Part shown: in pieces, positions 25,289 through 32,345 of the stretch | How the letters are laid out: each line of letters begins with the position of its first letter | Position numbering within the stretch: the first letter of the stretch is position 1 | Assembly (NCBI GenBank): GCA_028820505.1 | Contig: JAPPIT010000196.1 | Coordinates: 1 to 41,436 of the forward strand | Origin: Defluviicoccus sp. | Lineage (GTDB): Bacteria > Pseudomonadota > Alphaproteobacteria > MPNO01 | Direction: 5' to 3' | DNA length: 41,436 bases | Made by a program: the position numbers and the translations under genes | Notes under the pieces: model-generated | What the model was told of the DNA's origin: nothing | The model's input: the letters and a program-made list of their open reading frames with translations, nothing else | The model's database searches: none

Positions 25289-26293
25289 ATGAAAAGGATT
25301 TTTTTGACGATCGCGGCGGGCACTTTGTGGCTGGTCCCGTTGCAGGGCGCGCTGGCCGCCTGCGGGTCGGTGGTGATCGCGAACATGAACTGGGCCTCGG
25401 CCGAGCTGATGGCCAATGTGGACAAGATCGTCCTGGAGAAAGGCTATGGCTGCGAAGCCTCGCTGGTCCCGGGCGACACCATGCCGACCTTCACCTCCAT
25501 GAACGAAAAGGGCGCGCCCGACGTCGCGCCCGAACTCTGGGTGAACGCGGTTCGGAACCCGCTCGGCAAGGCGATGAAGGAAGGGCGGCTGCACTCGCTG
25601 AACGACGGCCCGATAACCGGGCTTGGCGAAGGCTGGTGGATTCCGCCGCACACGGCGAAGAAGCACCCCGGGTTGAAGACGGTTCTGGACATCCTGAAAC
25701 GTCCCGACCTGTTCCCCTACCAGGAGGACAAGTCGAAGGGCGCGTTCGTCGGTTGCCCGGCCGGCTGGGGGTGCCAGTTGACGAACGCCAACCTCTTCCG
25801 GGCCTTCGAGATGGAGAAGAAGGGCTGGGTTCTGGTCGATCCCGGTTCCGCCGCCGGTCTGGACGGCTCGCTCGCGAAGGCGGTGGAGCGGGGCCAGAAC
25901 TGGTTCGGATATTACTGGTCGCCGACCGCGCTGGTCGGCAAGTTCGGCCTGGTGAAGGTCCCGTTCGGAGTGCCGTTCGTCGGCAGCGAGCACTGGGACG
26001 GCTGCATCGTCAAGGCGGAACAGGACTGCGCCGACCCCAAGCCCTCGGCATGGACCGAGTCCGAGGTGCATACCGTGGTCAGCGACAAGTTCCTGAAGGA
26101 AGGCGGCGTGGCGGCCGACTATCTGAGAAAGCGCGTTTTTCCCGGCGCCATCATGAACGGAATGCTGGCCTACATGCAGGCGAACCAGGCAAGCGGCGAA
26201 GACGCGGCGGTGGAGTTCCTGCGCAAGCACGAAAGCATATGGTCCAAGTGGGTCTCGGCCGATGCCGCGGCGAAGGTGAAGGCTTCGCTGTAG
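25289..26293 (+). CDS. Glycine betaine/proline-type ABC transporter substrate-binding protein (OpuAC/ProX family)
   Basis: This is a 334-residue exported binding protein of the OpuAC family, which binds quaternary ammonium compounds or related solutes. A signal peptide ends near ALA-AC; L-A-A-C also fits a lipobox, so it may be a lipoprotein, although Cys25 could instead form a disulfide. The domain starts VVIANMNWASAELMANVD. The cysteine-flanked motif GCPAGWGC and several tryptophans may line an aromatic cage. ATG 25289 is chosen for the signal peptide. Permease and ATPase genes follow, an order opposite to E. coli proVWX. Betaine, choline or proline uptake is inferred. Confidence 0.9.
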   Translation: MKRIFLTIAAGTLWLVPLQGALAACGSVVIANMNWASAELMANVDKIVLEKGYGCEASLVPGDTMPTFTSMNEKGAPDVAPELWVNAVRNPLGKAMKEGRLHSLNDGPITGLGEGWWIPPHTAKKHPGLKTVLDILKRPDLFPYQEDKSKGAFVGCPAGWGCQLTNANLFRAFEMEKKGWVLVDPGSAAGLDGSLAKAVERGQNWFGYYWSPTALVGKFGLVKVPFGVPFVGSEHWDGCIVKAEQDCADPKPSAWTESEVHTVVSDKFLKEGGVAADYLRKRVFPGAIMNGMLAYMQANQASGEDAAVEFLRKHESIWSKWVSADAAAKVKASL

Positions 26294-26367: not shown

Positions 26368-27258
26368 GTGGAACTGTTCGACAAATTCCCCACCCTGGGA
26401 GATCAGGAACTCCGCGACCTCAAGAAGGCCATAGACCGCGGTTTTCGCGACTTCTCCCGCAGTCACGGGGAAGCGATAGAGAATTTCTTCGATCCGCTGC
26501 TGCAGTTCCTGGTCTGGTTCGAGAGGCTGCTGCAGACCAGCCCATGGCCGCTGATCGTCCTGGCCGTCGCGGTCTTCGCCTGGCTCGGCGCACGAAACTG
26601 GCTGGTGGTCGTCGGCACGGTCGCCGCGTTTCTCGCTATCGGCTATCTCGGCATGTGGCGGGACACGATGGCGACGCTTGCCATCGTGTCCGTCGCCACG
26701 CTGATCTGCATTGCGGTGGGCATTCCGATCGGCATCGCGATGGCGCGCTCGGACCGGGTCCAGGCGGCGATCACCCCGCTGCTCGACGTGATGCAGACCA
26801 TCCCGAGCTTCGTCTACCTGATTCCGGTCGTCATGCTGCTCGGCATCGGGAAGGTTCCCGGGCTGATCGCGGTCTGCATTTACGCCCTGCCGCCGATCGT
26901 GCGGCTGACCAATCTCGGGATCCGCCTGGTCGACAGGGAAGTGCTCGAAGCCGCCGACGCGTTCGGGGCGAGCTACACCCAGAAGCTCTTCGGGGTCCAG
27001 ATCCCGCTCGCCCTGCCCAACATCTTCGCCGGCGTGAACCAGACGATCATGATGTCGCTCGCCATGGTCGTGATCGCCTCGATGATCGGGGTCAAGGGGC
27101 TGGGCGTTCCCGTGCTAAGGGCGATCTCCAACCAGTATCTCGCGCTCGGGCTGATGAACGGCCTCGCGATCGTCGTGCTCGCGATCATCTTCGACCGGAT
27201 CTCGCAGGGGTTCGGAAAGAACCTGCAAAAGCACCGGAGGGATGAGCACCGACACTGA
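26368..27258 (+). CDS. ProW-type ABC transporter permease
   Basis: This 296-residue inner-membrane permease has about seven hydrophobic segments. The N-terminal 50 residues are a charged amphipathic region (as in ProW), and the ABC-permease EAA motif is in LEAADAFGASYTQKLFGVQIP. It starts at GTG 26368, 74 bases after the binding-protein gene, and overlaps the ATPase gene by 17 bases. Together the three genes form a complete ABC importer. Confidence 0.92.
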   Translation: MELFDKFPTLGDQELRDLKKAIDRGFRDFSRSHGEAIENFFDPLLQFLVWFERLLQTSPWPLIVLAVAVFAWLGARNWLVVVGTVAAFLAIGYLGMWRDTMATLAIVSVATLICIAVGIPIGIAMARSDRVQAAITPLLDVMQTIPSFVYLIPVVMLLGIGKVPGLIAVCIYALPPIVRLTNLGIRLVDREVLEAADAFGASYTQKLFGVQIPLALPNIFAGVNQTIMMSLAMVVIASMIGVKGLGVPVLRAISNQYLALGLMNGLAIVVLAIIFDRISQGFGKNLQKHRRDEHRH

Positions 27259-28267
27259 CACAAAGGTCGCGATCAGGGACCTCTACAAGATCTTCGGGCC
27301 CAGGGCGGCCGTCATGACGGAGCATGTCAGGGCGGGGATGTCGAAGGACGACCTGCTCGACCGCCACGGGCACGTGGTCGGCCTGAGGGCCATCGACCTC
27401 GACGTCACGGCGCACCACATTCAGGTCGTCATGGGCCTGTCGGGGTCGGGAAAGTCGACGCTGATCCGCCACATCAACCGGCTCATCGAACCGACTGCCG
27501 GCGAGGTGCTGGTCGACGGGGTGGACGTCCTCGGCATGACCCAGCAGGAGTTGCGGGAGTTCCGGCGCTCGAAGGCGTCCATGGTGTTCCAGCGTTTCGC
27601 CCTCATGCCCCACCGCACCGTGGCCGACAACGTCGCCTACGGGCTGCGCGTCCAAGGGATCGACAGGGCGGAATCCGCGGAACGCAGCCGGCACTGGATC
27701 GACCGGGTCGGGCTCACCGGCTACGAGGACTACTACACGACACAGCTGTCCGGCGGGATGCAGCAGCGGGTCGGCCTCGCCCGGGCGCTGGCGACGGACG
27801 CCGAGATCCTGCTCATGGACGAGCCGTTCTCGGCGCTCGACCCGCTGATCCGGACCGACATGCAGGACATCCTCCTGGATTTGCAATCGGAGCTGCACAA
27901 GACCATCGTCTTCATCACCCACGACCTGGAAGAGGCGCTCCGGCTCGGCAACAATATCGCCATCCTGCGCGACGGCGAGGCGGTGCAGATCGGCACGCCG
28001 CAGGAAATCGTCATGCGTCCGGCGGACGATTACGTGGCGGAGTTCATCAAGGACATCAACCGCGGCCGCGCCATCGAGGTCGCCTCGATCATGGAAAGCG
28101 GGCATGTGAACGGCGCGCCGGAGGTGGATGCCGGCGCGGTGCTCGACGACGCGCTCCAATCGCTGATCGGCGCGGGCGCCGAGGTCGCCACGGTTACGCG
28201 CGACGGAAAGCCGGTAGGCTCCGTCCGCCTCGAACGGATCGCTGCTGCCCTCGCCCGGCCGGACTGA
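27242..28267 (+). CDS. ProV-type ABC transporter ATPase
   Basis: This 341-residue ATPase powers the ProU-type importer. It has Walker A GLSGSGKST (65-73), Q-loop Gln117, signature LSGGMQQR (169-176), Walker B ILLMDEP (189-195) and a switch His in FITHD. The N-terminal extension (residues 20-50) is typical of ProV/OpuAA. The C-terminal tail is shorter than in E. coli ProV and holds at most a partial CBS region, so osmotic gating may be reduced (inference). Confidence 0.93.
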   Translation: MSTDTDTKVAIRDLYKIFGPRAAVMTEHVRAGMSKDDLLDRHGHVVGLRAIDLDVTAHHIQVVMGLSGSGKSTLIRHINRLIEPTAGEVLVDGVDVLGMTQQELREFRRSKASMVFQRFALMPHRTVADNVAYGLRVQGIDRAESAERSRHWIDRVGLTGYEDYYTTQLSGGMQQRVGLARALATDAEILLMDEPFSALDPLIRTDMQDILLDLQSELHKTIVFITHDLEEALRLGNNIAILRDGEAVQIGTPQEIVMRPADDYVAEFIKDINRGRAIEVASIMESGHVNGAPEVDAGAVLDDALQSLIGAGAEVATVTRDGKPVGSVRLERIAAALARPD

Positions 28268-28354
28268 CCGGGCCCGTCCGACCGCCCGGTTGCCCGCAGA
28301 TCGTCGGCGCAGCATGATCCGGCCATTGACCGTTCGTCGAAACGAGAGGATCGA

Positions 28355-28861
28355 ATGACTTTCTTCAAAGGGATTGCCTTGGCGCTGGCCGCCTCGGCGG
28401 GGATTTCATTGACGGCCCATGACGTATTGGCCCAGCAGAGCGGCACCTTCAAGGCGATAGCGAATTACGTCCGGCATTTCTCCACGCTGGAACATGCCGG
28501 GGAAACCGTGTTCAGCGGCATGCTGGACGGCAGCGTCACCATTCTGGAAAGCAGCGGCGGTCCTTTCGTCGCGGGCCGGCACAGCATGTCCAAATGCCTG
28601 GCGTACGGAAAGCGATCGGCGGCGGGCATGGATCTTGAAACACCCTGTACGATCGCCGACCCATCGGGCGACCGGCTGTATCTCCTCGCCAGCAGGAGCG
28701 CCGGTGACGTGAAGGCCGGGGGCGGGGGCGAGGGACATTTCGAACTCATGGGCGGGACCGGCGTCTACGCCGGGCTCGCGGGACGTTGCGCCTACAAGAC
28801 CGACTACCTGGCGAACGACCGGGTGATCACAACGACCGACTGCACCTGGCGGAAACGCTAG
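28355..28861 (+). CDS. Exported small protein of unknown function, four cysteines
   Basis: This is a 168-residue protein with a clear signal peptide (cleavage near VLA-QQ, residue 26). The mature part is about 140 residues and contains Cys81, Cys98, Cys145 and Cys163, which could make two disulfides in the periplasm. The segment GGTGVYAGLAG (133-143) recalls the glycine-rich turn of allene-oxide-cyclase/dirigent-like beta-barrels; this is a weak resemblance. GAGAGG precedes the ATG. It is 12 bases ahead of a second exported protein, probably co-transcribed. I do not recognise a family. Confidence 0.8.
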   Translation: MTFFKGIALALAASAGISLTAHDVLAQQSGTFKAIANYVRHFSTLEHAGETVFSGMLDGSVTILESSGGPFVAGRHSMSKCLAYGKRSAAGMDLETPCTIADPSGDRLYLLASRSAGDVKAGGGGEGHFELMGGTGVYAGLAGRCAYKTDYLANDRVITTTDCTWRKR

Positions 28862-28873
28862 CCGGAGCGAATC

Positions 28874-29356
28874 ATGAAGAAGATTATCGGAATCGCGGGC
28901 GTATTCGCGCTGCTGACCGGCGCGGCGAATGCCGCGGATAAATCGTCGTCCCTCGAAGCCATTCATTCGAAGCACATGGTGGCGGAAGCGATGCTGACCG
29001 CCCACTTCGTCGCCGCCGCCCTGAAGGCGGGAATGGAGCGGGACGAGATCAACGCCGTGCTAACGCGCATCGCGGAACGCTCCGCGGTGACCGAATTCTG
29101 GGTGAGCGACGAGAAGGGCCGGGTCGTTTTCACCAACGTCAAGAGGGTCGATTTCATCTTCCCCACCGATCCCGAGGCGGGCACCCAGGCCGCCCCGTTC
29201 GCAGCGCTGCTCGACGGTTCCAAGGCGGTGGTGACACAGGAATCGCGCCCGCGCGAAGCCGACCGAAAGGTCTTCAAGTATGTCGGCGCGGCGGGGGTCG
29301 ACCGGCCCCGGATCGTTCAGGTCGGCATATCCGCCGAGGAGTTCGGCAAACGCTGA
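28874..29356 (+). CDS. Exported single-Cache (PDC-like) sensor-type domain protein
   Basis: This 160-residue exported protein has a signal peptide (cleavage near ANA-AD, residue 20). Residues 35-152 look like a single Cache/PDC fold. A long N-terminal helix leads to a WVSDEKGRVVFTN strand-turn-strand, then PFAALLDGSKAVV and a closing RPRIVQVGI strand. Cache domains normally sit in receptors and bind small ligands; here it is alone with no membrane helix or output domain. The start has a GGAGCG ribosome site. Its stop directly abuts the convergent dctM stop. A periplasmic ligand-binding role is inferred. Confidence 0.82.
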   Translation: MKKIIGIAGVFALLTGAANAADKSSSLEAIHSKHMVAEAMLTAHFVAAALKAGMERDEINAVLTRIAERSAVTEFWVSDEKGRVVFTNVKRVDFIFPTDPEAGTQAAPFAALLDGSKAVVTQESRPREADRKVFKYVGAAGVDRPRIVQVGISAEEFGKR

Positions 29357-30685
29357 TCAGCTCACCATCAGGCCCGGCAGGTAGAGGGCGAGCCCAGGGA
29401 AGAGGATCAGCAGCACCAGCACGATCAGCGCGCATCCGATATAGGGTGCCGCCGCCATCGCCACCTGCCAGAGCGTCGTGCCCTGCGGCGCGACGCCGAT
29501 CATCACGAACAGCAGCAGGCCGAAGGGCGGCGTGGTCAGGCTGATCTCGAGCGCGAGCAGCATCACCAGCCCGAACCAGATCAGGTCGAACTGCAGCGTC
29601 TGCGCGAGCGGGAAGAAGATCGGCACGGTCAGCAGCATCATCGAGACCTGGTCCATGAACATGCCGAGGATCAGCAGGACGCCGAACATGATCAGCAGCA
29701 TGACGATGGGCGCCAGATCGACCTTGGTCGCCCACTCGATCAGCCCTGCGCTGGCGCCGGTGAAGGCGAGAAGCTGGCTGAAGGTCGACGAGGCGAGGAT
29801 GATCAGCAGCACCATCGCCGTGACCCTGACCGAGCCCGCGACCGACTTGACCACGACGTTCCAGGAAAGCACCCGGTAGAGCGCGGCGAGGATGAGCACG
29901 CCGAGCGCGCCGAACCCGGCCGACTCGGTCGGCGTCGCGACGCCGAGGATGATCAGCCCGATCACGCAGAACACCACGAAACCCATCGGCAGGACGTTGA
30001 CCACCAGGGCGAGCAGGATTCGGCCGAAAGACGTCGACTCCACGACGTATTCCGGCGCCGCGTCCTTGTCGATCTTCACCTGGGCGTAGATCAGGATCGA
30101 GTAGAGCACCGCCAGCACCAGCCCGGGCAGCACGCCGGCGATCAGCAACTTGCCGATATCGATCTCGGCGAGGCTCGCGAGCAACACCGCGAGCGCGGAC
30201 GGGGGGATGATCATCGCGAGCCCGCCGGTGCCGAGGATCGGCCCCATCGACATGTGCTTCTTGTAGCCCCGGCTGGTCATCTCGGGAACCATCATCGAGC
30301 CCATCATCGCGGTATTGGCCATGGTGGAGCCCGACAGGGTCGCGAAGATCGTGCCGCCGACGACGGTGATATAGGAAAGCCGTCCCGGCAGCCGGCCGAA
30401 ACAGAGGTCGAGCGCGTCGAACACCCGGATGGCGAGCCCGGTGTGGAAGAACAGCTCGCCCATGATGATGAAGAGCGGCACCGGGATCAGCGCGAAGATG
30501 GTCACCGATTCGACGGCGTTGACGACGATCTGCGGCATCGCGTCGAGTCCGCCCATGTAGATCATCGCGCCGATGATGTTGGCGGTCAGAAAGGCGAAGG
30601 CGACCGGGATGCCGAGCAGCATGAAGACGATGACCATGCCGACCAGGAAACCGGCGATGCCGTACCACTCGCTCAGCAATGCCAT
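29357..30685 (-). CDS. TRAP transporter large permease DctM (system 3)
   Basis: This 442-residue polytopic protein is the large TRAP subunit. Conserved blocks are VPLFIIMGELFFHTGLAIRVFD, GSTMANTAMMGSMMVPEM and GGLAMIIPPSALAVLLASL in pattern, and TTPPFGLLLFVM near the C-terminus. It is the paralogue of DctM 1. The start codon abuts the dctQ stop with no gap. It is the last gene of the long minus-strand cluster beginning with the Rieske gene at 35067, and its stop is adjacent to that of the Cache gene. Confidence 0.95.
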   Translation of the reverse strand: MALLSEWYGIAGFLVGMVIVFMLLGIPVAFAFLTANIIGAMIYMGGLDAMPQIVVNAVESVTIFALIPVPLFIIMGELFFHTGLAIRVFDALDLCFGRLPGRLSYITVVGGTIFATLSGSTMANTAMMGSMMVPEMTSRGYKKHMSMGPILGTGGLAMIIPPSALAVLLASLAEIDIGKLLIAGVLPGLVLAVLYSILIYAQVKIDKDAAPEYVVESTSFGRILLALVVNVLPMGFVVFCVIGLIILGVATPTESAGFGALGVLILAALYRVLSWNVVVKSVAGSVRVTAMVLLIILASSTFSQLLAFTGASAGLIEWATKVDLAPIVMLLIMFGVLLILGMFMDQVSMMLLTVPIFFPLAQTLQFDLIWFGLVMLLALEISLTTPPFGLLLFVMIGVAPQGTTLWQVAMAAAPYIGCALIVLVLLILFPGLALYLPGLMVS

Positions 30686-31198
30686 CTAGAGCGACTCCGA
30701 GGAGCCGACGGTGCCGGTGTAGTAGGACCCGAAGCCCAGCAGATAGCGGCCGAACTCGACCGCGACGAGGGTGAAGCCGAGCGGAAACGGCAGAAACAGG
30801 ATCCACTTCGGCATGTCGATCGAACGCAGATCGAGTTCGCCGGTGTCCAGCGCCAGCTGCATCTCCACGAAGCCGTAATAGACGAAGAGCCCGCAGAGAA
30901 CGATGCACAACACGTAGACCGCCTTCGCCATCGCCCATCGCACGGGCGGCGGCATCGCCATGGTGAGCGACTCCACGACTACGTGCCCCCTGAGCCGGAC
31001 CAGCCACGGCGCCGCCAACATGGTGGAGAACAGGAGGCAGTATTCCGCGATCGCGCTGTACCACTGGAGCGCGTTGTAGCCCATGGTACGGATCGCGACG
31101 TCCGCGATGATGCCTACGAAGATCGTTACCAGCATCAGCCCGGCGAGGATGGCGAGCCCGACGATCAGCCCGTCATAGGCTCGGGAAATCAGTTTCAT
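30686..31198 (-). CDS. TRAP transporter small permease DctQ (system 3)
   Basis: This is a 170-residue, four-helix small TRAP subunit. The block EYCLLFSTMLAAPWLVRLRGHV in pattern and the closing PFPLGFTLVAVEFGRYLLG match the system 1 DctQ closely. It lies between dctP (69-base gap) and dctM (no gap), the complete dctP-Q-M order. Confidence 0.92.
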   Translation of the reverse strand: MKLISRAYDGLIVGLAILAGLMLVTIFVGIIADVAIRTMGYNALQWYSAIAEYCLLFSTMLAAPWLVRLRGHVVVESLTMAMPPPVRWAMAKAVYVLCIVLCGLFVYYGFVEMQLALDTGELDLRSIDMPKWILFLPFPLGFTLVAVEFGRYLLGFGSYYTGTVGSSESL

Positions 31199-31267: not shown

Positions 31268-32263
31268 CTACTGGCCGTGATAGAGCTTGGAAAGCGTCTT
31301 GGCTTCCGGAGAATCGACCTTCTTCAGGCGCTCGACCGGCACCTTGTTGGCCAGGCCGAGATAGCGCTTCGCGGCCTCGCCCGTCATGGTGATCGTCTTG
31401 TGTCCGAATTCCTTGGCGAGGATTTCGGATTCCTTCTCCACCAGCGGCTTCCAGTAGGCGTGCGACGTGTGCTCCCACTCGCGCCCGAGCTTGAGCATCA
31501 GCTCGCGGCCTTCCTTGCTCAGCTTCTTCAACGCCTTGTTGGAGATGAAGATGCAGGGCTCGAGCTGGTAGAACCTGGGATAGATGCGGTACTTGACGAA
31601 TTTCGGCCAGCCCATCGGCCGGGTGAACAGCTCGGGGAAGGCGAACCCGTCGACCAGCCCGCGCTCCAGAGCGTTGTAGATCTCCGGCACCTGCACGGTG
31701 ACGGTGGTCGCGCCCAGCGCCCTCAAGAATCCGTCGTAGATCGGCACCGAGCGCATCTTGAACCCTTCGAGCGAAATCATCCCGTCGGGACCCTTCTTGG
31801 GCTCCCGGCTGAGATAGAGCACGAAGGACACGCTGGTCGCGGTCTGCGAGAGAATGATCCCGTCGAGGCGCTTGGTCACCGCCATGTTGAGCGCGTCCAT
31901 CGCACCCGACTTGCGCGCATCCCACGGCCGGATCATGGTCGCCGACAGCGCGTCGACCTCGGGGACCACGCCGCGGTGATAGCTGGCCGCGGTGAACATC
32001 AGGTCGTAGAGCCCCGACTTGAACCCCTTGGCCTGGGCCGGCGCCTTGGAAATCTCCGGACCGCCGATATGGGTGATCTTGAATTTCCCCGCCCCTGCCT
32101 TGTTGGCGTGCTCGATGAAGCGCAGGAAATCGGGGGTGAGCGGAAAGTTCTTGGGCCAGGCCGAGATGCCCTTGAGGGCAACCTCCTTCGCCTGCGCTAC
32201 CGGCGCGGCGAGAAGCGCTCCCGCCACCGCCGCGGCGGCAATCGATAGCAATGACTTCCTCAT
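31268..32263 (-). CDS. TRAP transporter solute-binding protein DctP (system 3)
   Basis: This is a 331-residue periplasmic binding protein. The signal peptide has a hydrophobic core at 5-22 and cleavage after AQA near 25. The ligand-carboxylate Arg171 is in GFKMRS, followed by the EIYNALERGLVDGFAFPE block. ATG 32263 is chosen over an upstream frame because GGGAG lies 7 bases before it and the signal peptide begins there. It shares several blocks with DctP 1, so the two transporters likely handle related ligands. It is 82 bases downstream of the gamma-subunit-like gene. Confidence 0.93.
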   Translation of the reverse strand: MRKSLLSIAAAAVAGALLAAPVAQAKEVALKGISAWPKNFPLTPDFLRFIEHANKAGAGKFKITHIGGPEISKAPAQAKGFKSGLYDLMFTAASYHRGVVPEVDALSATMIRPWDARKSGAMDALNMAVTKRLDGIILSQTATSVSFVLYLSREPKKGPDGMISLEGFKMRSVPIYDGFLRALGATTVTVQVPEIYNALERGLVDGFAFPELFTRPMGWPKFVKYRIYPRFYQLEPCIFISNKALKKLSKEGRELMLKLGREWEHTSHAYWKPLVEKESEILAKEFGHKTITMTGEAAKRYLGLANKVPVERLKKVDSPEAKTLSKLYHGQ

Positions 32264-32345
32264 GGTCGGGCTCCCTGTGGTTTCTGTTTCCGGTTGGACG
32301 TATCGGAAGGGCAGGTTTCCGTATTTGCCGGCTTCGCGCAAGCCG

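Follow-up and report, generated by a model that had tools for sequence, protein, structure and literature searches.

A free Cache-domain protein encoded by a Defluviicoccus contig belongs to a family probably characteristic of marine-sponge bacteria

We analyzed a stretch of 41,436 nucleotides from a Defluviicoccus sp. contig (JAPPIT010000196.1; hereafter the window), in which two short open reading frames, genes A and B, lie on the same strand with 12 bases between them (Table 1). The initial annotation had assigned signal peptides to both products and had pointed out four cysteines and a GGTG turn in the first; we recovered the same frames, recognized Sec signal peptides by eye in genes A and B (MTFFKGIALALAASAGISLTAHDVLA; MKKIIGIAGVFALLTGAANA), and saw the cysteines and the turn. 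Upstream of the two genes lies a ProX/ProW/ProV-type ABC operon, whose ATPase scores 349 bits against TIGR01186 (proV), above the cut-off. On the other side are genes for a TRAP transporter, names that represent our own reading of the translations, made without a family search. The stop codon of gene B abuts the stop codon of the opposite-strand TRAP large permease gene (window positions 29354-29359), which leaves no space for a terminator between them, and no promoter or terminator consensus was found at positions 28150-29450. Searches of Pfam and NCBIfam returned no match of any weight for either window protein. Both look like real genes because relatives exist within the genus (77% identical for gene B and 48-50% identical for gene A) and because dN/dS values within the gene B family were 0.02-0.27 in 17 of the 17 pairs tried, a pattern of purifying selection.

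Table 1. Genes A and B and the transporter genes that flank them in the window
Feature	Position	Strand	Description
Binding protein of ProV-type transporter	~25292-26293		OpuAC match
Permease of ProV-type transporter	26368-27258		BPD_transp_1 match
ProV-like ABC ATPase of betaine/choline-type transporter	27242..28267	+	Upstream neighbour; 87 bases before gene A
Gene A (ORF 1)	28355..28861	+	168 aa; exported; four cysteines; GGTGxYxG motif; without known family
Gene B (ORF 2)	28874..29356	+	160 aa; stand-alone single Cache domain; signal peptide ~1-20
TRAP transporter large permease	29357..30685	-	Convergent with gene B; read from translation
TRAP small permease	30686-31198		Read from translation
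TRAP binding protein	31268-32341		Read from translation

An AlphaFold2 model of gene B built on 60 sequences (pLDDT 87.4, pTM 0.80, with pLDDT >90 in blocks within residues 31-150) consists of a long N-terminal helix (residues 11-51) and a second helix (56-69), followed by a PAS-like antiparallel sheet (strands 74-78, 83-87, 119-121, 133-140, and 147-153), which is the topology of a Cache domain. The best Foldseek matches were the ectodomains of KinD, McpA, and YycG/WalK (E 4e-5 to 1e-3). VIA-align, which covers only what Foldseek ranked and for which absence from the list carries no meaning, gave Z scores of 13.4 for McpA, 13.2 for WalK, and 13.1 for CitA over 123-129 residues at ~3 Å, in a list dominated by Cache and extracytoplasmic PAS domains. 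The single-Cache domains of CitA, DcuS, WalK, and McpA (membrane proximal) thus resemble gene B over the full domain (Z 12-13), but they are parts of membrane receptors whereas gene B is a free protein, and identity to these known structures is only 8-16%, so no ligand can be transferred from them to gene B. A receptor would carry a membrane-anchored ectodomain fused to an output module; apart from its signal peptide, the 160-residue frame of gene B contains neither a membrane helix nor an output domain. The predicted structure marks gene B as a receptor-free Cache domain.

The structural comparisons therefore bear out the initial annotation, which had described gene B as an exported, stand-alone Cache domain lacking both a membrane helix and an output module and had suggested structure prediction as a check. 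The profile searches that it had also suggested gave a different outcome: none of the Cache models of Pfam or NCBIfam matches gene B, and no Cache model is among the Pfam matches listed for 60 of its relatives (25 of 31 families). Weak matches to CHASE8 (0.066) and PAS (0.12) came from one family member each. Weak Pfam matches to CMD, Helicase_C_3, and DUF6113 fell below the cut-off and were judged to be chance, and PDB profile searches gave chance or designed helical-repeat matches only.

Among 84,980 species, each represented by one genome, a scan detected 103 relatives of gene B, the best 80 of which were kept. As read from their frames, 65 of these 80 stand alone and the other 15 form part of larger receptor proteins, in which an N-terminal membrane segment comes before the domain and HAMP and output modules come after it. 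Pfam identified SpoIIE in all three fused relatives scanned, with HAMP near or above the cut-off; these three came from a separate genome search, outside the 80 loci, and the cyclase and kinase outputs of other fused relatives are our own reading of the translations. Plasmid matches amounted to 13 records (12 Azospirillum and 1 Paenibacillus), and of the 10 listed, 4 have a named gene at the matching position, in each case a SpoIIE/PP2C phosphatase. On a tree of 81 rows, which has few columns and long branches and leaves 37 of its 77 inner branches open, the stand-alone sequences and that of the window fall on one side of a branch with an SH-aLRT value of 99, and the change between stand-alone and fused states occurs once. 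The stand-alone proteins are one supported clade on this tree, and the family most likely arose from a membrane-distal ectodomain such as those of receptor enzymes with cyclase, SpoIIE phosphatase, or histidine kinase outputs.

Descent of this kind would suit a free domain that acts as a decoy or co-receptor, pairing or competing with a full-length receptor that has the same Cache domain, and Cache domains often dimerise. However, a fused receptor of this Cache family is missing in 46 of 48 carrier genomes (E 1e-3, in a search confined to this one Cache family), and the two exceptions, which belong to the window's genus, show no more than weak additional matches, in long (fused) frames (E 5e-8 to 1e-3). 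We consider such a role unlikely. Copy number is low across the same set (G000 and 47 carriers), with a single match in 44 of 48 genomes and two neighbouring copies in each of G713 and G716. At one further locus, L129 (G743:C92:6527-6802), a Cache-family stretch is interrupted by an internal TGA and TAA and is perhaps a decaying copy.

Twenty-six positions show the same residue, at 90% conservation or more, in both the 47 stand-alone and the 13 fused rows compared, including W76, D79, Q105, Q122, R127, Y136, D143, and R146. Positions 107 and 110 are 98% alanine in the stand-alone rows only; among the fused rows, position 107 varies and position 110 is mostly tryptophan (62%). Both alanines sit on a short helix (107-112) of the gene B model, and in Cache domains a short helix in this place lies near the ligand pocket, so that the alanines may open the lining of the predicted pocket. 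The ectodomains of Rhodopseudomonas and Methylocystis cyclases, Magnetospirillum and Azospirillum SpoIIE/PP2C proteins, and cyanobacterial kinases (with outputs assigned from the translations, apart from the annotated Azospirillum records) are ~34-50% identical to gene B and have the 26 conserved positions in common with it, but they are fused between membrane segments and HAMP or output modules, lack A107 and A110, and in no case come from a sponge-titled record.

The stand-alone proteins differ in their leaders. Simple rules assign a signal peptide to 28 of the 65, a lipobox to 8, and neither to 29; on inspection by eye, a lipobox also fits L055 and L063, and the signal peptide of L056 is a borderline case. 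Some leaderless members, such as L080 and L083, are preceded within a few codons by an in-frame stop, which makes a leader impossible. With ~28-29 of 65 members lacking a signal peptide, not every member of the family can act in the periplasm. The occurrence of exported, lipoprotein, and leaderless forms side by side, five invariant or nearly invariant charged and polar residues (D79, Q122, R127, D143, and R146), and the position of a leaderless gammaproteobacterial member (L075) 17 bases upstream of an amidase gene could also be explained if gene B were an enzyme or structural protein reusing the Cache fold, which would suit the leaderless forms. However, the receptor versions conserve these residues as well, which argues for a binding role common to both, and we regard an enzymatic or structural function as improbable.

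A gene-cluster comparison of the loci found no neighbour of gene B relatives that is conserved across phyla. Apart from gene B and overlapping frames, the widest neighbour cluster spans 11 loci and 4 title phyla, and its representative looked like a wrong-frame ORF. A substrate-binding gene comes next downstream, within ~300 bases, in 3 of the 36 loci inspected (L039, L041, and L070); these neighbours and the transporters of the window come without a base rate and are leads only. The amidase gene of L075 (PF01425; L075:7401-8921), lying 3' of the Cache gene, belongs to a sponge gammaproteobacterium, and a cluster with an amidase-like representative comprises 13 loci and 3 title phyla. In L085 and L088, which are gammaproteobacterial and leaderless, the Cache gene ends 22-34 bases before the gene for a long, apparently exported protein.

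The stand-alone and the fused members differ in the sources of their records. According to record titles, 64 of the 65 stand-alone loci among the best 80 of 103 relatives belong to series taken as sponge-symbiont MAGs, with the source of the remaining one (L082) unknown, and none of the 15 fused loci does. The Fisher p value of 2e-15 assumes independence among sequences that are in fact related and is not to be taken at face value, the comparison amounting in essence to one clade against its outgroup. Six of the 65 records (OY28, OX638, and CO36) are taken to belong to sponge series. For 33 others sponge origin was deduced from series names; these are 5 p16 records and 28 SB/RHO/COS/IRC records, assigned from their naming together with papers on those sponge species. 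The other 25 are documented in papers: 20 jk18 records have a series name that is used in a Caribbean Ircinia paper, 4 MPxx records stand in a table of an Aplysina aerophoba paper, and 1 SP3 record corresponds to Theonella swinhoei sample SP3.

Five stand-alone sequences supplied the scan patterns, and at least two of the five come from sponge records (G001 = L038 and G018 = L069). One pattern, Q[AS]APFA, is characteristic of the stand-alone clade, so the scan may under-represent stand-alone proteins from other habitats. The phylum of L055, which is also that of G690, has 16 genomes in the collection, 10 of which match (9 near full length). The sponge link might accordingly be read as an artefact of the genome collection and the scan patterns. 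However, the same scan returned the 15 fused relatives, none of them sponge titled, and searches that used no patterns gave a similarly restricted distribution. Of 385 alphaproteobacterial genomes, only that of the window and members of genus g86 gave stand-alone matches; evenly drawn genomes from the phylum of L043 (Acidobacteriota by title) held no intact copy in 168 other genomes and one stretch with two stops, and those from the phylum of L050 (Chloroflexota by title) held no copy in 90 others. The genomes searched without patterns (385, 168, 90, and 16) carry no habitat labels. An artefact of sampling seems to us a slim prospect, slightly slimmer than the two functional alternatives above, and we are fairly confident in describing a free Cache family characteristic of marine-sponge bacteria across several phyla.

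We found no account of a stand-alone Cache family of sponge symbionts in the literature, within open-licence PMC papers. Cache domains are reported to be enriched in some sponge-associated Thaumarchaeota, with a proposed role in host recognition (PMC7848895). These domains are, like gene B, tied to the sponge habitat, but they are archaeal and were found by Pfam models that miss the gene B family.

Members of the gene B family that are 50-68% identical to it occur in records titled Acidobacteria, Nitrospinota, Chloroflexi, Synechococcus, Binatia, and Gammaproteobacteria, and the phylum labels of the stand-alone tree rows need 18 changes (two unclear labels left out). High identity across phyla, rarity within two of the phyla, and these label changes together favour transfer, which we consider likely to have taken place among co-resident bacteria, a reading limited by unresolved deep branches and by some unreliable title labels. 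For example, L055 and L063 ("Gemmatimonadetes") share a clade with L059 ("Latescibacterota"), and L055 and L059 have common flanking genes and belong to one 16-genome phylum; transfer between phyla that is read from titles is therefore partly unsafe. A search of IMG/VR found no viral relative of either window protein, and phage-borne horizontal transfer was rejected on this basis.

Gene A has exactly four cysteines (C81, C98, C145, and C163), all of which recur in most relatives. C145 and C163 are present in all 11 rows of the family, and C81 and C98 are jointly absent in one (L031). Because one pair is lost together and the other is always kept, disulfides C81-C98 and C145-C163 are predicted. 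Relatives occur in 5 of 116 related genomes, in 7 of 385 genomes of the class, and, by profile, in 3 of 299 genomes of the phylum, the window's own genome being counted each time. Ten of them align at 39-50% identity to the window protein, and distant ones retain little except the motif GGTGKYxGxxG. A single-sequence AlphaFold2 model gave no confident fold (pLDDT 35), and profiles of Pfam, NCBIfam, and PDB gave no significant match. The initial annotation had called gene A barrel-like and had suggested AOC/dirigent-like families for profile searches; gene A resembles these proteins in being a small exported protein with a GGTG turn in its C-terminal third, and their eight-stranded barrel is a putative fold for it. 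Neither PF18678 nor PF03018 matches the protein at E up to 10, an hhalign comparison with one AOC_like protein covered 22 columns only (probability 3.8), and a sub-threshold Dirigent match (E 0.0044) came from 1 of 11 family members. One gene A relative (L021:7249-8267, G001:C182) adjoins a second small exported protein, and a SpoIIE-type receptor whose ectodomain is weakly related (L008) lies ~12 kb away. The genome G285 has four gene A relatives, two in tandem, at G285:C1:1852345-1853357 and two further places.

The initial annotation had proposed that genes A and B are a two-gene unit of secreted partners in ligand capture or signalling, a reading that is very improbable and that we rejected, since, despite the 12-base gap, the common strand, export of both products, and their lack of known families, the gene A profile (E up to 0.01) found a relative at 0 of 80 gene B-relative loci within up to 7 kb on each side, the genes lie on different contigs in G001 and gene A occurs without gene B in G003 and G004 (all three of the window's genus), and G285 and G150 have strong gene A relatives with no gene B match in the same-class search. 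A lack of co-conservation is what the initial annotation itself had named as grounds against its reading. It had also suggested checking whether the pair is conserved near ABC or TRAP genes; transport genes flank the pair in the window, but the neighbours of gene B relatives are diverse. Gene A seems to be an unrelated, chance neighbour.

For gene B, we favour a free Cache protein that came from a receptor ectodomain, is characteristic of sponge bacteria, and acts as a ligand binder, a combined reading that we hold to be evenly balanced between right and wrong. The ligand would be a small molecule from the sponge habitat, bound in the usual Cache pocket; the core residues of this pocket match those of the receptors, and A107 and A110 may have opened its lining. 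Gene B would then not act as a dedicated receptor but serve as a free binder for capture, buffering, or hand-over to an envelope protein such as a transporter, or might meet another receptor. The gene would be retained as one molecule is common in the sponge habitat, and the stand-alone family would have spread partly by horizontal transfer. Ligand capture as the mechanism is a tentative proposal, with somewhat less than an even chance of being correct.

More speculatively still, the unnamed free-Cache family may be a sponge-symbiont trait of many phyla, in which an ectodomain was freed once, spread among co-resident bacteria, stayed single copy, and was relocated several times (to the periplasm, to lipoproteins, and to the cytosol). 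It would be a symbiosis factor capturing one specific molecule of the sponge habitat. If this is true, a Cache family would work also as a free cytosolic protein. As a small, soluble, single-domain protein, gene B would be directly expressible and screenable, so that a common ligand could be found. Few single genes mark sponge life across bacterial phyla, and this family raises the question of what role a Cache domain has without a receptor.
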